NCBI GenBank assembly: GCA_020199775.1
Contig: JAIVJZ010000040.1
Coordinates: forward strand, 62,001-126,000
Source of the DNA: Acidobacteriota bacterium
Lineage (GTDB): Bacteria; Acidobacteriota; Blastocatellia; Pyrinomonadales; Pyrinomonadaceae
Length of the DNA: 64,000 bases
Reading direction: 5' to 3'
Shown here one piece after another: positions 3,107 to 54,853 of the stretch; within the stretch, counting starts at the first letter, position 1, and every line of letters starts with the position of its first letter. Below the pieces are notes generated by a model. The model had not been told where the DNA came from and made no database searches. It worked only from the letters and a program-made list of their open reading frames with translations. The position numbers and the translations under genes are program-made.

Positions 3107-3107
3107 A

Positions 3108-3190
3108 GGTTTCAAGTTTCAGGTTTCAGGTTTCAAGTTGAAAACCGAAGAACATTCAGACTTGAAACTTGTAACTTGAAACTTGAAACT
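3108..3190. repeat. Heptamer hairpin, TTTCAAG/TTTCAGG family
   Basis: It begins two bases after the stop of the gene ending at 3106. The arms are three to four 7-base units each and inverted. Here the following start codon is over 100 bases away, so this copy is 3' rather than 5' associated. Confidence 0.88.
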
Positions 3191-3314
3191 TACTTGTAAC
3201 CGCGCGCACGGATCGTTCGTCTTGCATCTTGGTTGGCCGGATTGAGGCTTCATTCTCTCCTGTGTCCGATGCGGCTTGGAAAATTCACTTATACATCATT
3301 GGAGATAAGGACAG

Positions 3315-10432: not shown

Positions 10433-10747
10433 GTGGACGCGCCCCGTGTCACGCAAGGCACATCAAATTCAGATAAGTCCCAAGAGGCCTCGGCGAGGGT
10501 GACGAAGATCGTCGCGGAGATATTAAGCCTCAAGCCCGGGGAAGTCGACGTCGATGTCCCGCTAACGAAGCAGAAGAATCCCGCCGATGAGCTTGATGTG
10601 GTGGAGATAGTCATGGGGGTCGAGGAAGCTTTTAACATTGAGATTAAGGATGAGGAACTGGGCGGCACGCTCGATGATGCGACAAAGGAACTGACTATCA
10701 GGAGACTGGTGGACATTGTCAGCAAAAAGACGTACGCAAATAAGTGA
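10433..10747 (+). CDS. Acyl-carrier-protein-like protein lacking the phosphopantetheine serine
   Basis: Encodes 104 residues from a GTG. Residues about 22-100 align by eye with acyl carrier protein: VTKIVAEILSLKPGEVDVDV, then ADELDVVEIVMGVEEAFNIE, then IKDEELG. In canonical ACP the motif is DSLD, with Ser carrying 4'-phosphopantetheine. Here the codon is GAG, giving DELD, so normal acyl loading should not be possible. Typical ACPs are about 78 residues; this one has an extra N-terminal tail. No fatty-acid or polyketide genes are adjacent. The upstream in-frame sequence encodes a possible lipoprotein signal but lacks ATG, GTG or TTG, so the true N-terminus is uncertain. Confidence 0.75.
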   Translation: MDAPRVTQGTSNSDKSQEASARVTKIVAEILSLKPGEVDVDVPLTKQKNPADELDVVEIVMGVEEAFNIEIKDEELGGTLDDATKELTIRRLVDIVSKKTYANK

Positions 10748-10874: not shown

Positions 10875-11018
10875 TACAGCAGTTTGCAAATGGATGCGAC
10901 TCGTCTGTGATTATGGGAGGGGGCGGGGCTTGTCCCTGCCCGCTCGCTTTCGTAGCCACGCGGGCAGCGACCAGCCCTGCCCCTCCAATGATTCCTCTCA
11001 ATTGCAAACCGCTATAAG
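10875..11018. mobile_element. MITE-like element, copy 1
   Basis: A 144-bp non-coding element is bounded by TA dinucleotides and imperfect 16-bp terminal inverted repeats, CAGCAGTTTGCAAATG on the left and the complement of TAGCGGTTTGCAATTG on the right. The interior is a long GC-rich hairpin. A closely related copy lies at 33047-33176. TA ends suggest mobilisation by an IS630/Tc1-type transposase, but no transposase is in the window. Confidence 0.8.
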
Positions 11019-11078: not shown

Positions 11079-12206
11079 TCATAGTCTCCTCACGAAACAC
11101 TTCCCCGGTAGTTGTCGAATCAACTCGCGCATCTCTAGGCCGAGCAAGACCCCTGTCAACGCCGAGACGGATAAGTTGCTCGCGCCGACGAGCGTATCTA
11201 TGTGGACGCCTTCATCCGTGGAGAGTAAGTTCATCACCGCGCGCTCGCCTTCGGATAAGTCTGCGGGGAGCGCGTGCTGCGCCGCCGACGCGCCCGCTTT
11301 CTTCTTCAACGGTTCGGGCGGAAGAAGGCGCGCGGCGATGTCCGGCGGCAGTTCGGCCGCCACGTCCTGCCACTGCTGCACGAGTTTCGCGCCCGCGCCT
11401 TTGATCAGGTAGTTCGTGCCGAACGAGTTGCGCGAGGTGACGTTGCCCGGCACGGCGTATACTTCACGGTTCTGCTCCATCGCCAGACGCGCCGTGATGA
11501 GACTTCCGCTGTTCTCCGCCGCCTCCACCAGCAGCACGCCCAGACTCAACCCGCTGATGATCCGGTTGCGGTACGGAAAGTTCTCCGGGATCGGCGGCGT
11601 CCCCAGCGGAAACTGCGAGACGAGCGCGCCGCCCCGACTCAAAATTTCCTCCGCCAACTTTTTATGATCGCGCGGGTAAATCTCGTCAACGCCCGTGCCC
11701 AACACGCCGACCGTGCGCCCGCCCGCTTCGAGCGCGCCCCTGTGCGCGGCGGCGTCGATGCCGCGCGCCAGCCCCGAGACGATGGTCACGCCGCGCGCCG
11801 CCAGATCGCGCGCCAGCATCAGAGCCACGTTCTGCCCGTAGGTCGAACAACGCCGCGAGCCGACGATAGCCACGCAAGGCGCGTCCAGACACGCCTCCCA
11901 AGCGCCGCGCACGTAGAGCGTGACGGGCGGGTCGGCGATCTCACGCAGCAGCGCGGGGTAAGCGCCGTCGTCCAGAATCAACACGTCCGCGCCGAGCACG
12001 CGCACGCGCTCAAGTTCGCGCTCCGCCTCCGCGTGGCGGTCGCGCAGGACGATGCTCTCCACCGCTTCGGGGCGCAGACGCAGACGTTCCAACTCGGAGC
12101 GCAATGCCGCGAACACGGCCTCAGCCGACCCGAAGCGTTCCAGCAAACGCGCCGCCGCCCGCGGCCCGACGCCCGGCGTCATGTTCAGAGCGATCCATTC
12201 TTTCAT
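11079..12206 (-). CDS. dprA: DNA-processing protein DprA
   Basis: Encodes 375 residues, the usual DprA length. An N-terminal helix-hairpin-helix-like segment (NMTPGVGPRAAARLLERFG, about 8-26) is followed by the Rossmann-fold DprA core (about 80-290), with VAIVGSRRCSTYG, IVSGLARGIDAAAHRGALEA, GVLGTGVDEIYP and NFPYRNRIISGLS. A C-terminal winged-helix-like segment (about 305-370) completes it. DprA loads RecA on incoming single-stranded DNA during natural transformation. The ATG is preceded by ACTT, with a GTGAGCA-type heptamer hairpin in the leader. The MITE-like element sits just past its 3' end. Confidence 0.95.
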   Translation of the reverse strand: MKEWIALNMTPGVGPRAAARLLERFGSAEAVFAALRSELERLRLRPEAVESIVLRDRHAEAERELERVRVLGADVLILDDGAYPALLREIADPPVTLYVRGAWEACLDAPCVAIVGSRRCSTYGQNVALMLARDLAARGVTIVSGLARGIDAAAHRGALEAGGRTVGVLGTGVDEIYPRDHKKLAEEILSRGGALVSQFPLGTPPIPENFPYRNRIISGLSLGVLLVEAAENSGSLITARLAMEQNREVYAVPGNVTSRNSFGTNYLIKGAGAKLVQQWQDVAAELPPDIAARLLPPEPLKKKAGASAAQHALPADLSEGERAVMNLLSTDEGVHIDTLVGASNLSVSALTGVLLGLEMRELIRQLPGKCFVRRL

Positions 12207-12298: not shown

Positions 12299-12397
12299 TG
12301 GCGGAGGCGTGTGGGAATCGAACCCACCCGAGCCTGTTCTCACAGTCTCACAGACGGTTTTGAAGACCGCGCCATTCACCAGAACAGATGCGCCTCC
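12299..12397 (-). tRNA. selC: Selenocysteine tRNA, anticodon TCA
   Basis: Read on the minus strand the gene begins GGAGGCGC and ends CGCCTCCG with an encoded CCA. Features specific to tRNA-Sec are visible: anticodon loop CTTCAAA (TCA, reading UGA), a six-pair D stem (CTGTTC/GAATGG) with a four-base loop, a long variable arm, and a T arm GTGGG-TTCGATT-CCCAC. The acceptor stem has seven clear pairs plus a possible C-A mismatch at the eighth. The length of 99 nt fits. This indicates that the organism makes selenoproteins; none is identified in this window. Confidence 0.95.
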
Positions 12398-12671: not shown

Positions 12672-14306
12672 ATGATTAATTTCGAGACGACGCCCGAATC
12701 ATACAAGCACTGGAAACTCGCGATAGACGGCGCGGTCGCCACCCTCTCGATGGACGTGCAGGAAGACGAGACGCTTGGAGAAGGCTACAAACTGAAGCTC
12801 AACTCCTACGACCTCGGAGTTGACATCGAACTCGCCGACGCCGTGCGGCGTTTGCGCTTCGAGCACCCGGAAGTTCGGGTGGTGGTGGTGACGAGCCTCA
12901 AGCCGCGCATCTTCTGCGCGGGCGCGAACATCTACATGCTCGGCACGTCTTCGCACGCCTTCAAAGTCAACTTCTGCAAGTTCACCAACGAGACGCGCTG
13001 CGCCATCGAAGACGCCTCGGCCAACTCCGGCCAACGCTACGTCGCCGCCTTGAACGGCACGGCTTCCGGCGGCGGCTACGAACTCGCCATCGCCTGCGAC
13101 GAAATCTATCTCGTGGACGACGGCAACTCCGCCGTCTCGCTCCCCGAAGTCCCGCTGCTCGGCGTGCTCCCCGGCACGGGCGGCCTGACGCGGCTCGTGG
13201 ACAAGCGCAAGATTCGACGCGACCGCGCAGACGTTTTCTCCACGCTCGCCGAAGGGTTGAAGGGCAAGCGCGCGAAAGAGTGGGGACTGATCGACGGCTA
13301 TTTCCCGACGAGCAAGTTTCAGGACGCGTTGGACGCGCACGTGCAAAGCCTCGTCCGGGCCGACGGCGCGAAAGGCGCGACGCCAAAAGGCATCAAGCTC
13401 AACCCGCTGCAAGTCGAGGCGATGGCCGAAGGGCGCGATTACAAGTATGTGAGCGTGAAACTGAATCGCGAGCAGCGTTACGCCGACCTGACGGTGCGCG
13501 CGCCGCAGGGCGAGCAGCCCGTGACCGTCGAAGAGATCGAGCGACTCGGAGACGCCTACTGGCCGCTCCAAGCCTACCGCGAACTCGACGACGCGCTCCT
13601 GCACCTGCGCATGAATGAACTGGAGATCGGCCTCGTCTGCACGCACACGGAAGGTAATATCGAGGACGTGCTCGCCATCGACCGCACCCTGCTCGCCAAC
13701 CGAGACCACTGGCTCGTCCGCGAGATCATCCTGCACATGGCGCGCGTGCTGCGTCGTCTCGATCTCACGGCCAAGAGTTTCTTCGCGCTCATCGAACCGG
13801 GCAGTTGCTTCGCCGGAAACTTGCTCGAACTCGCGCTCTCGGCCGACCGCACCTACATGTTGAACGACCCGGAGGCGCGCGTCGAAGTCGCCACGAGCGA
13901 GTTCAACGCGGGCGCGCTCCCGATGTCGAACGGGTTGACGCGCCTCCAATCGCGCTTCCTCGCCGCGCCCGAACAGGCCGCCGCAGTGCTCAAGCACGAA
14001 GGCGCGTTTGACGCCGAAGCCGCCGAAGCCGCCGGGCTCGTCACCTTCGCCCCGGACGATCTCGACTGGGAGGACAAGATTCGCGTGGACATCGAAGAGC
14101 GCACGTCGCTCTCGCCCGACGCGCTCACCGGCATGGAAGCGTCTCTGCGTTTCGCCGGGCCGGAAACGATGGACACCAAAATTTACGGCCGACTGACCGC
14201 GTGGCAAAACTGGATTTTCCAACGCCCCAACGCCGTCGGCCCCGAAGGCGCGCTGACGAACTACGGCAAGCCGACGCAGGCGCAGTTCGATTATAAGAGG
14301 ACTTAG
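12672..14306 (+). CDS. boxC: Benzoyl-CoA-dihydrodiol lyase BoxC
   Basis: Encodes 544 residues from ATG 12672 (an upstream TTG at 12654 is less likely), close to the roughly 555-residue BoxC of Azoarcus evansii. It is a double-length crotonase-fold enzyme: FCAGANIYML and GTASGGGYELAIACDE build the oxyanion hole of the N-terminal half, with LPEVPLLGVLPGTGG after it; a second crotonase-like half follows (about 330-540, EPGSCFAGNLLELALSADRT). In the Box route it cleaves the dihydrodiol or epoxide form of benzoyl-CoA to a semialdehyde-CoA and formate. The BoxB gene follows in the same direction. BoxA and BoxD are absent from the window. Confidence 0.93.
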   Translation: MINFETTPESYKHWKLAIDGAVATLSMDVQEDETLGEGYKLKLNSYDLGVDIELADAVRRLRFEHPEVRVVVVTSLKPRIFCAGANIYMLGTSSHAFKVNFCKFTNETRCAIEDASANSGQRYVAALNGTASGGGYELAIACDEIYLVDDGNSAVSLPEVPLLGVLPGTGGLTRLVDKRKIRRDRADVFSTLAEGLKGKRAKEWGLIDGYFPTSKFQDALDAHVQSLVRADGAKGATPKGIKLNPLQVEAMAEGRDYKYVSVKLNREQRYADLTVRAPQGEQPVTVEEIERLGDAYWPLQAYRELDDALLHLRMNELEIGLVCTHTEGNIEDVLAIDRTLLANRDHWLVREIILHMARVLRRLDLTAKSFFALIEPGSCFAGNLLELALSADRTYMLNDPEARVEVATSEFNAGALPMSNGLTRLQSRFLAAPEQAAAVLKHEGAFDAEAAEAAGLVTFAPDDLDWEDKIRVDIEERTSLSPDALTGMEASLRFAGPETMDTKIYGRLTAWQNWIFQRPNAVGPEGALTNYGKPTQAQFDYKRT

Positions 14307-14388
14307 TTTCAAGTTTCAGGTTTCAAGTTTCAGGACTGAAGTTCAACGGTTCTTTAACTTGAAACCTGCAACCTGAAACTTGAAACTC
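14307..14388. repeat. Heptamer hairpin, TTTCAAG/TTTCAGG family
   Basis: It starts at the base after the boxC stop and fills the spacer to boxB. The loop (CTGAAGTTCAACGGTTCTTT) is closely shared with the copy at 17930-18003, so these are related elements and not chance repeats. Unusually, boxB keeps an AAAGGGA site after it. Confidence 0.9.
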
Positions 14389-17094: not shown

Positions 17095-17928
17095 ATGGCT
17101 GAAGCGGAAGCGAAGGTGCAAGAGACGGAAGCGGGCGGCAAACTCGTGCGGTACGCGGCGGAGGGCGGCGTCGCCGTCTTGACGCTGAACGATCCCCCGG
17201 CGAACACGTACAGCTACGAGATGATGGGCGAACTCGACCGCGCCATCCTCGCGGCGCGCATGGACGAGAGCGTCCAGACAATCGTCATCACGGGGAGCGG
17301 CGAGAAGTTTTTCTGCGCGGGCGCGAACATCGCGATGCTCCAGAGCGTGACGCCCACGTTCAAATACTATTTCTGCCTCCATGCCAACGAGACTTTATCG
17401 CGCCTGGAGCAGACGCCGAAACTCGTCATCGCGGCCATCAACGGCCACTGCGTCGGCGGCGGCCTCGAAGTCGCGATGGCGGCGGACATTCGCGTCGCGC
17501 GCAAGGGCGCGGGCAAGATGGGCTTGCCGGAAGTCTCGCTCGGCGTCCTGCCGGGCACGGGCGGCACGCAGCGGCTCGTGCGCATGGTCGGCAAGTCGCG
17601 CGCGATTGAGTTGATGACGACGGGCGAGCTTTTTGATTTCGAGCGCGGCGCGGAACTCGGCCTCGTCAATCGCGTCTACGAAGCGGAGACGGGCGAGGCG
17701 TTCATGCGTCAGGTGCTGGAATACGCCGCGCGCTTCACCACCCCGCACAAGGCCGCGCACGCCGTCGGCCGCATCAAGCGCGCCGTGCAGACGGGCGCGG
17801 AGATTCCCTTCGAGTCCGCGCTCGCGCTCGAACGCGAACTCCAGCAACAACTCTTCCAATCCGAAGACGCGCGCGAAGGGCTCGACGCCTACACGGCCAA
17901 GCGCAAGCCACAGTTCAAAGGGAGATAA
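17095..17928 (+). CDS. Enoyl-CoA hydratase (crotonase family)
   Basis: Encodes 277 residues. The oxyanion-hole motif FFCAGANIAML and the segment GHCVGGGLEVAMAADIRVA precede GLPEVSLGVLPGTGGTQRL. Both catalytic glutamates of classical hydratases are kept (the E of GGGLE and the E of LPEV). Part of the N-terminal half resembles BoxC (FCAGANI, then FCxxxNET). It likely hydrates an unsaturated ring or ring-opened CoA ester in the aryl-CoA pathway. The ATG has GGAG about nine bases upstream, so unlike the next four genes it has a recognisable ribosome site. Confidence 0.92.
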   Translation: MAEAEAKVQETEAGGKLVRYAAEGGVAVLTLNDPPANTYSYEMMGELDRAILAARMDESVQTIVITGSGEKFFCAGANIAMLQSVTPTFKYYFCLHANETLSRLEQTPKLVIAAINGHCVGGGLEVAMAADIRVARKGAGKMGLPEVSLGVLPGTGGTQRLVRMVGKSRAIELMTTGELFDFERGAELGLVNRVYEAETGEAFMRQVLEYAARFTTPHKAAHAVGRIKRAVQTGAEIPFESALALERELQQQLFQSEDAREGLDAYTAKRKPQFKGR

Positions 17929-17929
17929 G

Positions 17930-18003
17930 TTTCAGGTTTCAAGTTTCAGGACTGAGACTCAACGGTTCTTTAACTTGAAACCTGAAACCTGAAACTTGAA
18001 ACT
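17930..18003. repeat. Heptamer hairpin, TTTCAAG/TTTCAGG family
   Basis: It begins right after the previous stop and ends against CTCTTATG of the next gene. The loop matches the copy at 14307-14388 almost exactly. Confidence 0.9.
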
Positions 18004-18006
18004 CTT

Positions 18007-18792
18007 ATGGAGCAATTCATCAAAGTCCACGCGCGCGAACGCATCCTGACGATCACGCTGGATCGCGCCGAGAAGTTGAACGCTTTCGCGGGACACATGC
18101 GGCGCGATCTGGGCGAGACGCTGGAGCGCGCGGCGAGCGACGACGGCGTGCGCGTGATCGTCATCACGGGCGCGGGGCGCGCGTTCTGCGCGGGCGGCGA
18201 CGTGGCGGCCATGGACGAGATGATGGGGCGCGAGGACGCGGACGAGTTCGCGCGCATGCTCGGCGCGGGGCGTCGCGTGGTGACGGCCATTCGCGAGATG
18301 GTGAAACCCGTGGTCGCTTCGATTAACGGCACGGCATCGGGCGCGGGCTTCAATCTCGCCCTCGCGTGCGACCTGCGCATCGCGGCCGCGTCGGCAAAGT
18401 TCAGCCAGTCGTTCGTGAAGATGGGGCTGCACCCGGATTGGGGCGGGACATATTTTCTGCCGCGCATCGTGCCGCCGAATATCGCCTGCGAGATGTTCTT
18501 CCTCGGCGACGCGATTGACTCGGCGCGCGCGCTCGCGCTCGGACTCGTCAATCGCGTCGTGCCCGACGACGAACTCGCGGCCGAGACGCAGAGACTCGCC
18601 GAACGCCTGCGCGACGCGCCGCCCGAATCCGTCGCCGCCGCCAAGCACGCCGTCTACCTGAGCCCCCACGCCGAACTCGACGAGATGTTGCAGTATGAGA
18701 CCGAAGCGCAACTCCGCTGCTTCCAAACCGGCGAGGCGCGCGAGCGCGTGCGCGCCTTTGTGGAGAAACGCACGCCGCGCCCCGGACGATAA
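18007..18792 (+). CDS. Enoyl-CoA hydratase/isomerase family protein (PaaG-like)
   Basis: Encodes 261 residues of the crotonase fold (FCAGGDVAAMD, GTASGAGFNLALACDLRIA, MGLHPDWGGTYFLPR). Both hydratase glutamates are replaced (Asn in GFNLA; no Glu before MGL). An Asp is retained in HPDWGG, as in PaaG-type ring or double-bond isomerases. A role as isomerase in aryl-CoA degradation is therefore more likely than simple hydration. Translation appears to start at CTTATG with a heptamer hairpin immediately upstream and no Shine-Dalgarno sequence. Confidence 0.9.
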   Translation: MEQFIKVHARERILTITLDRAEKLNAFAGHMRRDLGETLERAASDDGVRVIVITGAGRAFCAGGDVAAMDEMMGREDADEFARMLGAGRRVVTAIREMVKPVVASINGTASGAGFNLALACDLRIAAASAKFSQSFVKMGLHPDWGGTYFLPRIVPPNIACEMFFLGDAIDSARALALGLVNRVVPDDELAAETQRLAERLRDAPPESVAAAKHAVYLSPHAELDEMLQYETEAQLRCFQTGEARERVRAFVEKRTPRPGR

Positions 18793-18794
18793 GG

Positions 18795-18885
18795 AGTTTC
18801 AGGTTTCAGGTTTCAGGTTTCAAGTTAAAGAACCGAAGAACCTCAGTCCTGCAACTTGAAACTTGAAACCTGAAACTTGAAACCT
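18795..18885. repeat. Heptamer hairpin, TTTCAAG/TTTCAGG family
   Basis: The inner loop is the reverse-complement type of the copies at 14307 and 17930, so the element is inserted in the opposite orientation. It spans the spacer between the isomerase stop and the SDR start. Confidence 0.9.
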
Positions 18886-18891
18886 GTGACC

Positions 18892-19788: not shown

Positions 19789-20202
19789 ATGAGCTTAAAA
19801 TTCATCAACCCCGAATCGCTCGGACGCCCGCGCGGCTACGCCAACGGCGTGCTCGCACAGCCCGGCGGCGCGTGGCTGTTCATCGCCGGGCAGATCGCGT
19901 GGGACGAAGGACAGAAGATCGTCAGCGCGGATTTTGTCGCGCAGTTCGAGCGCGCGCTGGCGAACGTCCTCTCGGTCGTCCGCGAGGCGGGCGGCACGCC
20001 CGAACAGATCGCGCGCCTCGTCGTCTACGTCACGGACAAAGAGGAATACCGCGCGCGCCGGAGCGAGATCGGAGCGTGCTGGCGCAAGCTCATGGGGCGG
20101 CACTTTCCCGCCATGGCGCTCGTCGAAGTCAAAGCCTTACTCGAAGACGACGCGAAAGTGGAGATTGAAGGCATCGCCATGTTGGTAAATCGTGAATCGT
20201 GA
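19789..20202 (+). CDS. RidA/YjgF-family protein without the catalytic arginine
   Basis: Encodes 137 residues with the Rid fold signature (WLFIAGQIAWDE, NVLSVVREAGGTPEQIARLV, VYVTDKEEY, FPAMALVEVKALL, VEIEGIAML). Classical RidA has Arg105 in the PARS segment and hydrolyses enamines and imines. Here that position is Met (PAMA), so it belongs to a divergent Rid subgroup. Rid-like proteins also accompany the 2-aminobenzoate cluster of A. evansii as I recall it. A role in deaminating the enamine 2-amino-5-oxocyclohexenecarboxyl-CoA is attractive but unproven. Its last residues (NRES) are encoded by the AATCGTG repeat. Confidence 0.88.
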   Translation: MSLKFINPESLGRPRGYANGVLAQPGGAWLFIAGQIAWDEGQKIVSADFVAQFERALANVLSVVREAGGTPEQIARLVVYVTDKEEYRARRSEIGACWRKLMGRHFPAMALVEVKALLEDDAKVEIEGIAMLVNRES

Positions 20203-20261
20203 ATCGTAAATAGTTAAACCCTGATTTCTTCTATTCACGATTTACGATTTACTATTCACGT
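20188..20261. repeat. Heptamer hairpin, AATCGTG/AATCGTA family
   Basis: The left arm overlaps the last codons and stop of the RidA-like gene; the right arm (ATTCACG/TTTACGA) ends at GTCTTATG of the next gene. Confidence 0.9.
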
Positions 20262-20264
20262 CTT

Positions 20265-21068
20265 ATGATTTCTCCGAAAAATTTTCTCTACGAAGTGGGC
20301 GACGAGGGCGTCGCCACGATCACGCTCAATCGTCCCGAACGGCTGAACGCGCTGACGTTTGAAGTCTACCGCGAGTTGACGGATGCGTTCGCCGCGTTGC
20401 AGGACGAACGCGCGGTGCGCGCCGTCGTCATCACGGGCGCGGGGCGCGCGTTCTGTTCGGGCGGCGACGTGCGCGACATCATCGCCGACCTCCAAAAACT
20501 CGACATCGCGGGACAACTCGAATTCACGCGGCTCACCTGCGAACTCATACGCAACCTGCGGAATTTGCGTAAGCCCGTCATCGCGAGTTTGAACGGCGCG
20601 GCGGCGGGCGCGGGCGCGGTCATCGCGCTCGCCTGCGACCTGCGCATCGCGGCGGAAGAGGCGCGCATCGCGTTTCTCTTCGTGCGCGTCGGGCTGTCGG
20701 GCGCGGACATGGGCGCGGCCTATTTGTTGCCCCGCTGCGTCGGTCTGGCGAAGGCGACGGAGTTGCTCTACACGGGCGATTTCGTCTCCGCGCGCGAGGC
20801 CGAACGCATCGGACTCTACAACCGCGTCGTCGCGGCCACGGAACTGGAAGCGGAGACGCGCGCCCTCGCCCTGCGACTCGCGCGCGGTCCCTCGTTCGCG
20901 CTCGGCATGACCAAAGAGATGCTCAACCGCGAGATGCACGTTGACCTCGACACCGCGCTCGAATGGGAGGCGCAGGCGCAATCCGTCTGCATGCAACACC
21001 CGGACTTCCGCGAAGCCCACGAAGCCTTCAACGCCAAGCGCGAGCCGGTGTTCAACAAACAAACGTAA
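20265..21068 (+). CDS. Enoyl-CoA hydratase/isomerase family protein
   Basis: Encodes 267 residues of the crotonase fold (FCSGGDVRDI, AAAGAGAVIALACDLRIA, VGLSGADMGAAYLLPR). Both hydratase glutamates are missing, while an Asp lies in the GADMG loop, again pointing to an isomerase or ring-processing activity. It is the third crotonase of the island and shares most with the PaaG-like protein at 18007-18792. A heptamer hairpin adjoins the start codon with no ribosome site. Confidence 0.9.
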   Translation: MISPKNFLYEVGDEGVATITLNRPERLNALTFEVYRELTDAFAALQDERAVRAVVITGAGRAFCSGGDVRDIIADLQKLDIAGQLEFTRLTCELIRNLRNLRKPVIASLNGAAAGAGAVIALACDLRIAAEEARIAFLFVRVGLSGADMGAAYLLPRCVGLAKATELLYTGDFVSAREAERIGLYNRVVAATELEAETRALALRLARGPSFALGMTKEMLNREMHVDLDTALEWEAQAQSVCMQHPDFREAHEAFNAKREPVFNKQT

Positions 21069-21146
21069 ATCGTGAATCGTAAATCGTAAATAGAAAGAAC
21101 CCGGCTTTTATCTATTTACGATTTACGATTCACGATTTACGATTCG
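21066..21146. repeat. Heptamer hairpin, AATCGTA/AATCGTG family
   Basis: It starts inside the previous stop codon and ends at CGCTTATG of the acyl-CoA dehydrogenase gene. The arms carry three to four units each. Confidence 0.9.
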
Positions 21147-31522: not shown

Positions 31523-32749
31523 ATGCGTTTTTCTCGAGTCACACGTCTTGCCTGTGCTTGTGCGCTGGTCTTCTCTACTCTGACCCCGCTGCGCGCGTCG
31601 GGCTTTAGCGACGCCACGCGCGTCGCCTTGATGCACGAACCGCTCACGGACGATCAACCGGAAGCGCGTGTCGGGTTGACGACTGAAACTGCGACGACGC
31701 AGGAGGCGCAAGCGGCGACGCCGACAACAACGACGAAGAAACGCTCGAACCTTTTCGTCCGCATCATCTCCGCGCCTTTTCGCGGCCTCGCCAAACTTTT
31801 CGGCAGCAGTGATAAAGGCGACAAGACCGCGCGCGCGAAAGCGAAGCAAAAGAAGGAGACGCAAATTGCGGCCGCGAAGCAAACGCCGGGCGGACGGCCG
31901 GACGCCGCACGCGTCGAACCGCCGCCCGCCACAGCTTCGCAACCCGAAGCGTTGGCCGAAGCCGCCGCGCGCTCCGCGCGTGCGGGCGAGAAGGTGTTGA
32001 GCGTGCCGCCGACTTTCGCCGCGCCCCCCTCGGCATCAACCCCGGCCGACATCCCCGCGCCGCCGCCACCGTCCGGCGCGGCGAAAGAGTTCGACTACGA
32101 ACCGCGCCCGTTCACCCCGTTCATCGAAGGCGTGCCGGGCGACCCGCTCTCGCAGGGGCGCGCGCTGCTGGCGAACGGCTACACTAACGAGGCCGTCGCG
32201 GAGTTGTCCGTGGCCGCCGTCACCGGCCCCGACCTCGTCGAGGCGAACAACCTGCTCGGCCTCGCCTACGACCGGCGCGGGCAGCACAAACAGGCGCGCG
32301 AGTTTTACGAACGCGCCCTCTCGGTCGAACCGCGGAACGCGCAGGTGTTGAACAACCTCGGCCATTCGCTCTATCTCGACGACCGTTACGCCGACGCGCT
32401 CGCGCGCCTCAAAGACGCCGCGCGGCTCGCCCCCGCCGACGCGCGCGTCGCGGGCAATCTCGCGCTCGTCTACGGTCGGCTCGGCAAGTACGACGAAGCC
32501 TTCAAACAGTTCAAGCGCGCGGGCAGCGAATTTTACGCGCGCACCAACACCGCCGTGCTCCTCGCCAACGCGGGGCGCGACCGCGACGCGATCAAACACT
32601 ACGAAGCCGCGCGCAAACTCGACCCCGCCGCTTCGGACGTGCTGCGCCAACTCATCACGCTCTACGTCCGCACAGGCCAACGCGACAAGGCCGAGGCCGC
32701 CCAGCGCGCGCTCGACAAGACGGCTGACAAGGCTTCGGCCGTGAGTTAA
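31523..32749 (+). CDS. Exported TPR-repeat protein
   Basis: Encodes 408 residues from ATG 31523, which has AAAGGA nine bases upstream (a GTG at 31481 is disfavoured). A signal peptide (about 1-22) precedes a long low-complexity linker rich in Ala, Thr, Lys and Pro (about 45-195). Five or so TPR units follow (about 205-405), with motifs such as EANNLLGLAYDRRGQHKQAR, EFYERALSVEPRNAQVLNNL and YGRLGKYDEAFKQFKRAG. TPR domains mediate protein-protein contacts. No partner is encoded next to it. Confidence 0.9.
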   Translation: MRFSRVTRLACACALVFSTLTPLRASGFSDATRVALMHEPLTDDQPEARVGLTTETATTQEAQAATPTTTTKKRSNLFVRIISAPFRGLAKLFGSSDKGDKTARAKAKQKKETQIAAAKQTPGGRPDAARVEPPPATASQPEALAEAAARSARAGEKVLSVPPTFAAPPSASTPADIPAPPPPSGAAKEFDYEPRPFTPFIEGVPGDPLSQGRALLANGYTNEAVAELSVAAVTGPDLVEANNLLGLAYDRRGQHKQAREFYERALSVEPRNAQVLNNLGHSLYLDDRYADALARLKDAARLAPADARVAGNLALVYGRLGKYDEAFKQFKRAGSEFYARTNTAVLLANAGRDRDAIKHYEAARKLDPAASDVLRQLITLYVRTGQRDKAEAAQRALDKTADKASAVS

Positions 32750-32785
32750 GAGCCGCGAAAGCAGCCACGACACCACGAAGCAGAA

Positions 32786-33215
32786 GACTTCTCAGAACCG
32801 TCACGCGTGACGGCGACTCGAAACGTGTGACGGTCACACCAAAACACAAAACGGTGCGCCGAAACACACGACGGTCACACCGAAAACTCTAACGGTCGTT
32901 CCAAAATCACTGACGGCCACCTCAAAACACGAAACGGCACGCCAAAACACGTAGCGGCGGAGTTAAATCACGTGACGATGGAGTTGAAACGCGTGACGGC
33001 GGGGTAAAAACGCGTGGCGACGGAATCATCACGCGCAACGGAGCATTACAGCAGTTTGCAAATGGATGCGACTCGTCTGTGATTATGGGAGGGGCCGGGC
33101 TTGTCCCTGCCCGCTCGCTTTCGTAGCCACGCGGGCAGGGACAAGCTTCATCGCACTCAATTGCAAACCGCTATAAAACACGCGGCGGCGGAGTTAGAAC
33201 ACGAGACGGCGACAC
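32786..33215. repeat. Degenerate 21-bp tandem repeat array, interrupted
   Basis: About a dozen imperfect 21-bp units of the form AAAACACGnnACGGcgnnnnn occur between the TPR gene and the response-regulator gene. The MITE-like element at 33047-33176 interrupts the array; two further units follow it. The units are too divergent and have no regular spacers, so this is not CRISPR. No long open frame covers it. Confidence 0.75.
33047..33176. mobile_element. MITE-like element, copy 2, inserted in the 21-bp array
   Basis: A 130-bp element with the same TA-bounded terminal repeats and interior as 10875-11018. The interior arms CTTGTCCCTGCCCGC and GCGGGCAGGGACAAG are exact inverses, forming a 15-bp stem. 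The array on both sides keeps its 21-bp unit, consistent with insertion. Confidence 0.83.
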
Positions 33216-33259
33216 CGGAGCAAGCGACTTTGGAGTTGTTACGTCTACAGGAGCGCGCT

Positions 33260-34675
33260 TCAACTGCGCCGCGTCAAATTGTAATCGCGCAGGCGGCGGT
33301 AGAGGGTGGAGGGCGAGATGCCGAGGATTTCGGCGGTCTTGCCGCGATGCCAGTTGGTCTGTTCGAGCGCGGAGACGATCTGTTGACGCTCGACTTCTCT
33401 GAGCGGCGGCTGCACGACCGAGCTTGCCCCTTCGACCGGCGCGCCGCCCGCCCCTCCTGCCGTCGTGCCCACATAGGCCGTAACGAACGCGGTCGCCGCC
33501 GGGTTGACGATTTCGGGCGGCAGTTCGCTCGTCGTAATGCGCCCGTCGTTGGCGAGCAGCACGGCGCGCTCAAGGCAGTTGCGTAACTGGCGCACGTTGC
33601 CCGGCCACGGGTACGCGGCGAGCGCGGCAAACGCTTCGGGAGTGATCTCCGGCGGGTTCGGGCCGCCGAGTTGACGGACGAGATGCTGCGCGAGCGGCTC
33701 GATGTCTTCGGGGCGTTCGCGCAAAGGCGTGAGGTTGATCTGAAATCCGTTGATGCGGTAGAGCAGGTCGGCGCGGAAGCTGCCGTCGGAGACGGCCTGC
33801 GGCATGTCGCGGTTCGTCGCGGCGATGATGCGCACGTTGACCTGAACTTTGCGCACCGCGCCGACGCGGTAGAAGGTCTGCGTCTCGATGGCGCGCAGCA
33901 GTTTCGACTGCAAGGGCGCGGGCAGTTCCGTCACCTCGTCCAGAAAGAGCGTGCCGTTGTCGGCGAGTTCGAAGAGTCCGAGCTTGCGCCCCTTCGCGCC
34001 GGAGAACGCGCCCGCCTCGTAGCCGAACAGTTCCGATTCGAGGAGCGATTCCTGAAAGGCGGCGCAGTTGAGGTCGATGAACGAGGCGTCTTTGCGCTGC
34101 GACAGACGGTGAATGGCGTGCGCGATCAACTCCTTGCCCGTGCCCGACTCGCCCGTGATCAGGACGGAGGCGTCCGAGGGCGCGACGCGCTCGACGAGGC
34201 GCAGAGCCTCGCGCATCGCGTCCGAGACGTGGACGATCTCCGGCATCCCCGACTGTCGCGCGAGTTGCGCGCGCAGGCGTTGATTGTCCACGCGCAGCCG
34301 CCGCTTCTCGGCCGCGCGTTTGACGAGCGTGTCGAGTTCGTTGATGTGATAGGGCTTGGAGAGGTAATCATACGCGCCGAGTTTCATCGCCTCGATGGCC
34401 GTCTCGACGGTGGCGTGCCCGGTCAGCATGATCACTTCGGGCGGGTTCGGCCGCTGGTGGACGCGGCGCAAAAGTTCGAGGCCGTCCATGCGCGGCATGT
34501 TGATGTCGCACAACAGCACATCGACGTTGCTCTCTTCCAGCAGGCGCAGCGCGGCCTCGCCGTCGGGCGCGACGCGTACCTCGTGCCCCTGCCTTTGAAG
34601 TTCTTTTTGCAACACCAGCCGGAGGTTCGCTTCATCCTCGGCCACCAGAATTCTGCTCGGCTGCTCGTTACTCAA
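33260..34675 (-). CDS. NtrC-family sigma-54-dependent response regulator
   Basis: Encodes 471 residues. The start is a TTG overlapping the kinase stop (TTGA) with GGAGG nine bases upstream; the longer frame to 34906 is rejected. Receiver domain: about 8-120 with phospho-acceptor Asp57 in CDINMPRMDG. AAA+ domain: about 145-380 with Walker A GESGTGKE, GAFSGA (the sigma-54 contact loop, normally GAFTGA) and LFLDEVTELP. C-terminal Fis-type helix-turn-helix: GKTAEILGISPSTLYRRLRDY. It is the partner of the hybrid kinase upstream; translation is coupled. Confidence 0.94.
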   Translation of the reverse strand: MSNEQPSRILVAEDEANLRLVLQKELQRQGHEVRVAPDGEAALRLLEESNVDVLLCDINMPRMDGLELLRRVHQRPNPPEVIMLTGHATVETAIEAMKLGAYDYLSKPYHINELDTLVKRAAEKRRLRVDNQRLRAQLARQSGMPEIVHVSDAMREALRLVERVAPSDASVLITGESGTGKELIAHAIHRLSQRKDASFIDLNCAAFQESLLESELFGYEAGAFSGAKGRKLGLFELADNGTLFLDEVTELPAPLQSKLLRAIETQTFYRVGAVRKVQVNVRIIAATNRDMPQAVSDGSFRADLLYRINGFQINLTPLRERPEDIEPLAQHLVRQLGGPNPPEITPEAFAALAAYPWPGNVRQLRNCLERAVLLANDGRITTSELPPEIVNPAATAFVTAYVGTTAGGAGGAPVEGASSVVQPPLREVERQQIVSALEQTNWHRGKTAEILGISPSTLYRRLRDYNLTRRS

Positions 34676-40012: not shown

Positions 40013-40287
40013 CTCCCTTAAACAAGCGGCGTGCCGCGCGCTGCCTGCCGCGAACACGGCGCAAAACTCGCCAAAGCGCGTCGTCCGGCAACTCGTCTCA
40101 AAAACCGGAAGCCGATCCCACACGATTTCCCGTCAACCTGACGCGTCATGCTGACTTCACAGTCGCGTCTTGACCGAGGCGTTGCCCGGCTCAAAACAGA
40201 TAGACGCGCACTTCCAGTTTTTTCATTCATGGGAATATTCTCGCGCGTTGACAACCTTCGCCCGGCTGGCGCACTCTGAGAAAACCG

Positions 40288-40368
40288 TAAATCGTGAATC
40301 GTCAATCGTGAATAGATAAGGACGGGCTTTCTCTATTCACGATTGACGATTCACGTTTGACTATATTC
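40288..40368. repeat. Heptamer hairpin, AATCGTG family
   Basis: AATCGTGAATCGTCAATCGTG is mirrored by CACGATTGACGATTCACG. It ends at ATTCTTATG of the MFS gene. Confidence 0.9.
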
Positions 40369-54139: not shown

Positions 54140-54238
54140 AAGGTTTCAAGTTTCAGGTTTCAGGTTTCAAGTTAAAGAACCGGAGAACTAAAGAACCTCA
54201 AACCTCAGTCCTGAAACTTGAAACCTGCAACTTGAAAC
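54140..54238. repeat. Heptamer hairpin, TTTCAAG/TTTCAGG family
   Basis: It spans the spacer exactly from the MBL start (CCTTATG on the minus strand) to the stop codon of the DUF1844 gene. The loop matches the copy at 18795-18885. Confidence 0.9.
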
Positions 54239-54853
54239 TTACCTACCGCCCGTGATGTCGTTGCCGGTGAAGCCGCGCGGGCGTGCGGGCGGGCGTTGCG
54301 TCGAGGTCAAGGAGATGTATTGCATGCGTAATTCGGCGAGCAGCCCTTCGAGAATTTGCCCCTCCTGCGTGCTGAGGTTGCCGTGCGTCTTCTGTTGAAT
54401 CGTGCCGAGCAGATCGATGCAGTGCTTGGCGAGCGGCAGGTCGAGTTCGCCGGGGGCGAGGCCGGGGTGCTCGGTCATGCCCATCGCCGCCGCCGCGGGC
54501 GAGGCGATGAACATGACGAGATTGGCGAAGGCCGTCGGGTCTTCCGCTTCCTCCGCCGCTCCTGTAGCGGCAGCGTCCGGCGCGTCGTGCATCGCCGTAG
54601 CCGGGCGCGACTCGCTCGCGGTTTCGGCGGGTGGCGGCGACGACGACCGCTCACGTCGCGCCGTTTCGGCCGCGGGCGTAGACGCAACGGCAGCGGAGTC
54701 CGCTCCGGCGGCGGCGACGGTTTCCGTTCCGGTCGCGGCGGGCGCGTTGTCGTCGGTTGTGGTATCGGCCTTGCGCTCGATGTCGCGGGGCGTGCCGTCG
54801 GGGTTAAACAGACGCCGGTCTGTAACTTTGAAATGTGGTTTTTCTTCGCTCAT
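54239..54853 (-). CDS. DUF1844-domain protein
   Basis: Encodes 204 residues from ATG 54853 (the frame continues to 55102 but lacks a site). The N-terminus KPHFKVTDRRLFNPDGTPR is characteristic of DUF1844 proteins. A low-complexity Ala/Thr/Glu linker (about 30-110) follows, then the DUF1844 core: FANLVMFIASPAAAAMGMTE, LPLAKHCIDLLGTIQQKTHG and NLSTQEGQILEGLLAELRMQ. Function unknown; such genes are common in Acidobacteriota and Deltaproteobacteria. It diverges from mazG. Confidence 0.88.
   Translation of the reverse strand: MSEEKPHFKVTDRRLFNPDGTPRDIERKADTTTDDNAPAATGTETVAAAGADSAAVASTPAAETARRERSSSPPPAETASESRPATAMHDAPDAAATGAAEEAEDPTAFANLVMFIASPAAAAMGMTEHPGLAPGELDLPLAKHCIDLLGTIQQKTHGNLSTQEGQILEGLLAELRMQYISLTSTQRPPARPRGFTGNDITGGR

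Follow-up and report, generated by a model that had tools for sequence, protein, structure and literature searches.

Introduction

What kind of element sits, bounded by TA on either side, within a degenerate tandem array at this locus, and how did it come to be there? The window considered here is the whole 64,000-nucleotide stretch that was analysed (G000:C40:62001-126000), G000 being the window genome, a 5.9-Mb assembly that is ~92% complete and probably belongs to the Pyrinomonadaceae, to judge by those relatives of its IS630 transposase that carry names. A preliminary description had reported two TA-bounded copies of a short element with 16-bp terminal inverted repeats and a hairpin interior, and had read them as a non-autonomous IS630/Tc1-type transposon (a MITE) that moved within the lineage. 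It had proposed a search for further copies, for an IS630 transposase with matching ends and for empty sites in relatives, and had named a functional RNA as the alternative.

Two copies of one element

That a TA-bounded element is present twice in the window is confirmed, beyond chance; the borders previously given, 10875-11018 and 33047-33176, are corrected to 10875-11016 and 33047-33175. The parts of the two copies, and the array into which the second is set, are as follows.

33047-33175, plus strand: copy 2 of the MITE, 129 bp from TA to TA, within the 21-bp array
33047-33072, plus strand: left IS630-type end (type A) of copy 2, 26 bp, among ranks 1-4 of 2152 TA starts
33150-33175, minus strand: right IS630-type end (type B) of copy 2, 26 bp, among ranks 1-4 of 2152 TA starts
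33088-33113, plus strand: left REP of the REPIN core of copy 2, an imperfect palindrome with a GGAG tag, fitting the REP pattern with 0 mismatches (G000:C40:95088-95113)
33115-33130, plus strand: loop separating the REP arms of copy 2, 16 bp, nearly invariant among 15 aligned elements (diversity 0.008)
33131-33145, minus strand: remnant of the right REP arm of copy 2, after which ~20 bp are missing relative to full-length copies
10875-11016, plus strand: copy 1 of the MITE, 142 bp from TA to TA
10917-10942, plus strand: left REP of copy 1, 2 mismatches to the REP pattern (G000:C40:72917-72942)
10961-10986, minus strand: right REP of copy 1, 1 mismatch to the REP pattern (G000:C40:72961-72986)
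32829-33046, strand not assigned: degenerate tandem array of ~21-bp units, the target of copy 2 (TRF rows 32829-33024; by eye about two more units to the right of 33175, to ~33220)

The two copies are identical at 123 of 128 aligned non-gap positions, with gaps mainly in the right half, and the right hairpin arm of copy 2 is partly deleted, having ~20 bp fewer than in full-length copies. A 16-bp terminal inverted repeat is a fair description of the best part of the ends; the repeat is in fact imperfect, matching at 13 of the first 15 bp and at 20 of 26. As DNA both copies fold better than all 200 shuffles (z of -5.7 for copy 2 and -4.5 for copy 1), as does a full-length copy (z of -11.3). Copy 2 does split the 21-bp array, which resumes on its right by eye, and the two together stand between convergent genes. 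Copy 1 has on one side an ORF weakly resembling an acyl carrier (10433-10747) and on the other dprA (11079-12206, minus strand), whose 3' end faces it.

Ends of the IS630 type

The ends were scored with a matrix built from 87 distinct ends of 50 IS630 elements, namely those among 80 loci collected by transposase homology in which an inverted repeat with TA borders spans 950-1110 bp. By this measure the four window ends take ranks 1-4 among the 2152 TA starts in the window, at 17.8-19.2 bits, the next start scoring 10.0. A first matrix, of 18 elements chosen partly for similar-looking ends, was circular; a little circularity remains in the present result, for which the homology query was three transposases picked after the resemblance of the ends had been seen. 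Removal of the ten loci named as Pyrinomonadaceae or Acidobacteria, which reduces the matrix to 42 IS630 elements, leaves the four ends at ranks 1-4 (14.9-17.1 bits, next 9.3), and a matrix from 58 loci taken without an end filter (4 + 54 of the 80) gives a similar result. By sequence, then, both 33047-33175 and 10875-11016 have ends of the IS630/Tc1 type. The sites at which such elements lie carry a further signature: in each of the 23 copies that have both ends, C or T precedes the TA and G or A follows it (Y-TA-R), the neighboring Y and R bases alone being an independent result, as the pattern by which the 23 were found demanded the TA.

Among the 56 of the 80 loci examined, the nearest end seen is that of an IS630 in a Pyrinomonadaceae MAG, which ends in TAGAGCGGTTTGCAATTG and agrees with the right (type B) end at 17 of 18 positions. 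Within G000 the sole PF13358 match is an IS630 with ORFA and ORFB (L031), whose two ends are matched at 22 and 23 of 28 positions by the type E end of a third G000 MITE family. The ends of L031 are related to those of the window element but not identical, and the Pfam search of this ~92%-complete assembly found no IS630 with exactly matching A/B ends.

Ends of this type also occur around other contents. MITEs with little or no inner structure carry them in G021 (L094) and G038 (L095), and in G042 they surround a different palindrome. At two cyanobacterial loci (L212 and L214) ends of this kind enclose a hairpin core in a short element, and by eye one of the two has a GTAG tag.

Copy number and mobility

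Further copies were indeed found. With copy 2 as query, G000 yields 81 matching pieces at E <= 0.001 (in some cases both strands of a single palindrome). The end motif TAYAGCRGTTTGCAAW is present there 36 times, as compared with 0 when the pattern is read backwards. The genome holds dozens of relatives of the element, and many of the full-length ones, members of a 149-bp family, measure 148-152 bp. Outside G000, a search of 119 genomes finds TAYAGCRGTTTGCAAW at six places in four of them (G017, G021, G038 and G042), five being MITE-sized two-ended elements and the other (L093) having a degraded second end ~140 bp away. The motif is absent from the congeners G039 and G040, and the full-length element has no match among the 7 candidates scored in each of these genomes, whose assemblies are 83% and 89% complete.

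Empty sites in relatives were read from joined flanks, of which 21 were made and five aligned (L129, L133, L002, L140 and L004). For L004, which belongs to the window's own A/B family, they align through the junction in both congeners, the site being an unoccupied TA in G039 and TG in G040; for L129, of the sibling C/D family, both congeners likewise have an empty site, reading TC in G039 and TA in G040. Alignment is one-sided or not clear for L133, L002 and L140, and for the remaining 16 the match table shows one-sided, repeat or no matches. One element, L130, lies inside a tandem repeat, and its joined junction string recurs once, unchanged, one unit leftward.

For copy 2 itself, the syntenic place in G040 is a longer 21-bp array without the MITE. 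The joined flanks of copy 2, with one TA kept, match this degenerate array at 0.71-0.75 as the best of six variants; 30 of 42 positions agree, as compared with a best of 33 and a mean of 20.4 for 2000 random 42-mers of the window, array included. These values lend an empty site for copy 2 moderate support at most, the array being too degenerate to prove one. The left side of copy 1 is non-syntenic with G040, and hence no empty site can be read there. Taken together, copy number, absence from the congeners, the Y-TA-R context, the ends and the empty sites support the earlier reading of a non-autonomous element of the IS630/Tc1 type that has moved in this lineage.

As a separate observation, three MITE copies in G000 (L123, L004 and L012) are inserted into a hairpin loop. 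Joined flanks form a stem with a net of at least 6 pairs in 3 of 23 elements, as against 2 of 111 other Y-TA-R sites at the same loci, and the unoccupied L004 site in G039 resembles a terminator hairpin.

The REPIN core

A REPIN is a mobile hairpin that normally relies on a different enzyme, the RAYT. The core of the present element consists of two inverted REPs, each a GTAG or GGAG tag with an imperfect palindrome, of which copy 2 keeps one whole and part of the other. The inner part of the element, GKAGGGGCNGGGMTKGTCCCTGCCCG together with its inverted partner, fits a 26-bp REP pattern that is found at 79 half-sites in G000 with <=3 mismatches; the backwards-read pattern gives 0. Among 119 genomes in the family, 24 have a close form of it (one mismatch allowed), G000 included. 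The core is also found free-standing in other genomes.

It is in one of these relatives that the link to a RAYT is seen. At G036:C65 (L379) a RAYT gene is flanked left and right by the same REP in inverted copies; the gene scores 120.8 bits against NCBIfam NF047646 (REP-associated tyrosine transposase, cut-off 80) and only 38.5 bits against the general model PF01797. Because the same REP flanks a RAYT gene in this relative, we read the hairpin interior of the window element as an inverted REP pair, a REPIN; the RAYT-REP link is drawn from this one locus, in another genome of the family. The preliminary description had seen the hairpin and had missed its REPIN identity along with a second MITE family with the same core and the end-swapped elements discussed below.

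In G000 the general model PF01797 matches two genes, one IS200-type (L091) and one with 5 stops that is IS200-type by eye (L092), and finds no RAYT, the same model giving the G036 RAYT 38.5 bits. Ten Y1_Tnp loci in G027, G006 and G042 were considered as RAYT partners and rejected: all are IS200-type by NCBIfam, 0 of 10 has the REP nearby, and they are uninformative on RAYT-REP pairing. One locus, L349, has a different repeat beside it.

REPINs next to IS630-type ends

The REP pattern by itself gave the 79 half-sites of G000, and manual grouping turned these into 50 clusters. No more than 100 bp separates 42 of the clusters from an IS630-type end, which is present on both sides in 28 and on one side in 14. 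The other eight score no such end, two of them having damaged ends by eye (L137 and L142) and two lying at contig ends. Elsewhere, 1 of 73 clusters examined (80-bp limit) has an IS630-type end, at a borderline score of 5.4; these 73, in 21 genomes, come from loci found by core similarity and from hand-chosen positions in the REP list. A MITE in G106 (L065) has, by eye, similar ends and this REP core, and a G028 locus (L364) has one similar end without TA.

In G028, with 29 REP half-sites and no Y1_Tnp match, 0 of 26 clusters examined lie in IS630-type ends by the matrix, and almost every REP examined stands free: being short of a RAYT does not by itself lead to capture. One REPIN each in G028 (L375) and G024 (L077) is found within other inverted repeats. 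These two, and L135 in G000, adjoin another terminal repeat, GAGCGCCTAACAAAA and variants, with TTA on both sides of L375; we presume that these ends may be IS5-like.

In the reading that we consider very probable, the element is an IS630/Tc1-ended non-autonomous transposon with a REPIN as passenger, mobilized in trans by an IS630 transposase, and with the REP arms as points of exchange. IS630-type MITEs would have captured REPINs, and a trans-acting IS630 transposase would then have spread the MITE-REPIN composites by binding both ends, excising the element and inserting it at a TA, which would be duplicated. The REPIN would play no part in this reaction and simply ride along. The core does look like a passenger of the MITE frame, because ends of the same type hold another palindrome in G042, or little structure in G021 and G038. 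The further step, from being carried to being mobilized by an IS630 transposase, is one that we infer. Since the REP arms are common to several MITE families, recombination or template switching could join halves of different elements there, and deletion within the palindrome could yield shortened copies such as 33047-33175.

It might be supposed instead that RAYTs repeatedly targeted MITE copies already in place, and the occurrence of REPINs in at least three G000 MITE families with differing loops, as well as in the G106 MITE seen by eye, would fit such independent insertions. The junctions, however, lie at the same place in 15 aligned A/B elements, one loop sequence is common to 24 elements, and the general model PF01797 finds no RAYT in G000. 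Identical junctions and a single loop argue that capture came first and that the composite was amplified afterwards, which makes repeated insertion unlikely.

Mixed elements are also seen. Two loop markers define 36 composites, of which 24 carry loop 1 and 12 carry loop 2, a count of loops with <=2 mismatches in the loci examined and not a full census. Their outer ends make 17 of them A-B (one, L017, with a reversed loop) and 6 of them D-C. In L028, L140, L132/L045, L141 and L025 the ends or inner parts are of more than one type, and in L015 an inverted copy of one half of the loop stands in place of the other.

Nucleotide diversity was taken from 15 of the 24 loop-1 elements, the second family and L015 being omitted, as were elements that are truncated, rearranged or end-altered (L013, L017, L018, L019, L022, L025, L028, L029 and L030). 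It is 0.022 over the 37 outermost bp at the A end, 0.035 in the B end and 0.008 in the loop, and 0.166 and 0.117 in the two arms. Diversity in the arms so far above that of the ends and loop is not what a simple recent burst predicts. The four-gamete test, applied to the 153 informative site pairs of these 15 elements, fails for 48. Exchange between REP arms would explain both features, as would replication errors in the palindrome.

Another possibility is that the element is a plain IS630-type MITE whose hairpin is incidental and unrelated to REP or RAYT. The structure-poor MITEs L094 and L095 show that same-type ends have no need of the core, and the tie to a RAYT comes from a single locus. 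Against this, the core fits the 26-bp REP pattern, with its 79 half-sites in G000 and none backwards, stands free in other genomes and flanks the G036 gene on both sides, so that we regard an incidental hairpin as quite improbable. Least probable is a conserved functional RNA, or a terminator or regulatory hairpin, under selection: strong RNA folding on both strands (z of -6.4 and -10.0), the place of copy 2 between convergent genes and the nearly invariant loop would suit it, but the element has no Rfam match at the gathering threshold (the window's one match is a tRNA-Sec elsewhere), a terminator scan of 32700-33400 gave two sites, neither within it, and the two congeners lack the end motif, have no match to the element among the candidates scored and do have empty sites for L004 and L129, which disfavor the functional RNA named as the alternative at the outset.

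Relation to known systems

Correia and RUP elements are named in PMC2817692 as IS630-derived MITEs. Like the IS630/Tc1/mariner MITEs generally, the present element is short and non-coding, with terminal inverted repeats, a TA target and many dispersed copies; here the core is a REPIN, and several end families have that core and swap ends. ISY100 and the ~1-kb IS630 subgroup share the TA target duplication, which for ISY100 is reported from in vitro insertion, in an account by which its 24-bp ends probably suffice for transposition and 24-30 bp per end appear enough (PMC2170065). If short ends are enough, any interior could be carried. ISY100 differs in being autonomous, with a single transposase ORF, whereas L031 has ORFA and ORFB.

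The GTAG REPINs that accompany RAYTs (PMC3116915; PMC2817692; PMC3733652) also consist of two inverted, tagged imperfect palindromes and a spacer, although the tag here is often GGAG. They differ in that most G000 REPs adjoin IS630-type ends, with no RAYT found by PF01797. The nearest parallel is in Anabaena variabilis, for which the relevant remark in PMC3733652 describes many GTAG-15 dimers within long palindromes, TATAGGA...TCCTATA, with TA at both ends; these palindromes were not found without REPs and were read as REP insertion targets. As here, REP dimers lie inside TA-bounded palindromes, but the end sequences differ and are described as targets, not as transposon ends. Our searches of the open-licence literature turned up no account of a REPIN within an IS630 MITE, the closest precedent being this remark (PMC3733652). 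Three things are new here: the nested REPIN, the end-swapped elements and the nearness of most G000 REPs to ends of the IS630 type.

Dependence on different enzymes is the reason why REPINs are classed apart from MITEs. That 42 of 50 REP clusters in one genome adjoin ends of the IS630 type suggests that a member of one class can travel as a passenger of the other. It also gives the palindromes that surround the Anabaena variabilis REP dimers, hitherto unexplained, a reading that can be tested. The composites lend themselves, in addition, as a naturally occurring series, to work on the way in which exchange between transposons is promoted by palindromic arms. A broader proposal, which we put forward tentatively and at somewhat less than even chances, is that the transposase class itself changed: REPINs that lack their own tyrosine transposase would have been adopted by MITEs of the DDE type (IS630-like and perhaps IS5-like), their arms serving as a common adaptor that shuffles MITE ends, perhaps several times and in cyanobacteria too. 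It is rated no higher because the REPs of G028 stand free without a Y1_Tnp match, and because the absence of a RAYT is read from a general model.

Other features of the window

Several further features were seen in passing. Beyond the longer array of G040 (L280, 426-990) lie a second type of 21-bp array, the gene of a CRP-type regulator and a second small ORF; the regulator gene and this ORF are absent at that position from G000. The segment 6427-11071, at whose right edge copy 1 lies, is non-syntenic with the G040 stretch read and encodes a 986-aa beta-propeller/Calx-beta/DUF4214 protein.

The window also has intergenic inverted arrays of 7-bp units (GTTTCAA/TTGAAAC; TCGTGAA/TTCACGA; variants), each of ~70-100 bp, in two groups.

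662-743, 3107-3191, 14305-14388, 17922-18004, 18792-18886 and 54141-54240: inverted 7-bp arrays, first group
20185-20271, 21064-21144 and 40278-40361: inverted 7-bp arrays, second group

Stretches matching these arrays are also scattered through the two congeners; the array at 662 keeps its place in G040. Finally, the window encodes a selenocysteine tRNA (tRNA-Sec) at 12303-12397 on the minus strand, with an Rfam score of 67.8 bits.
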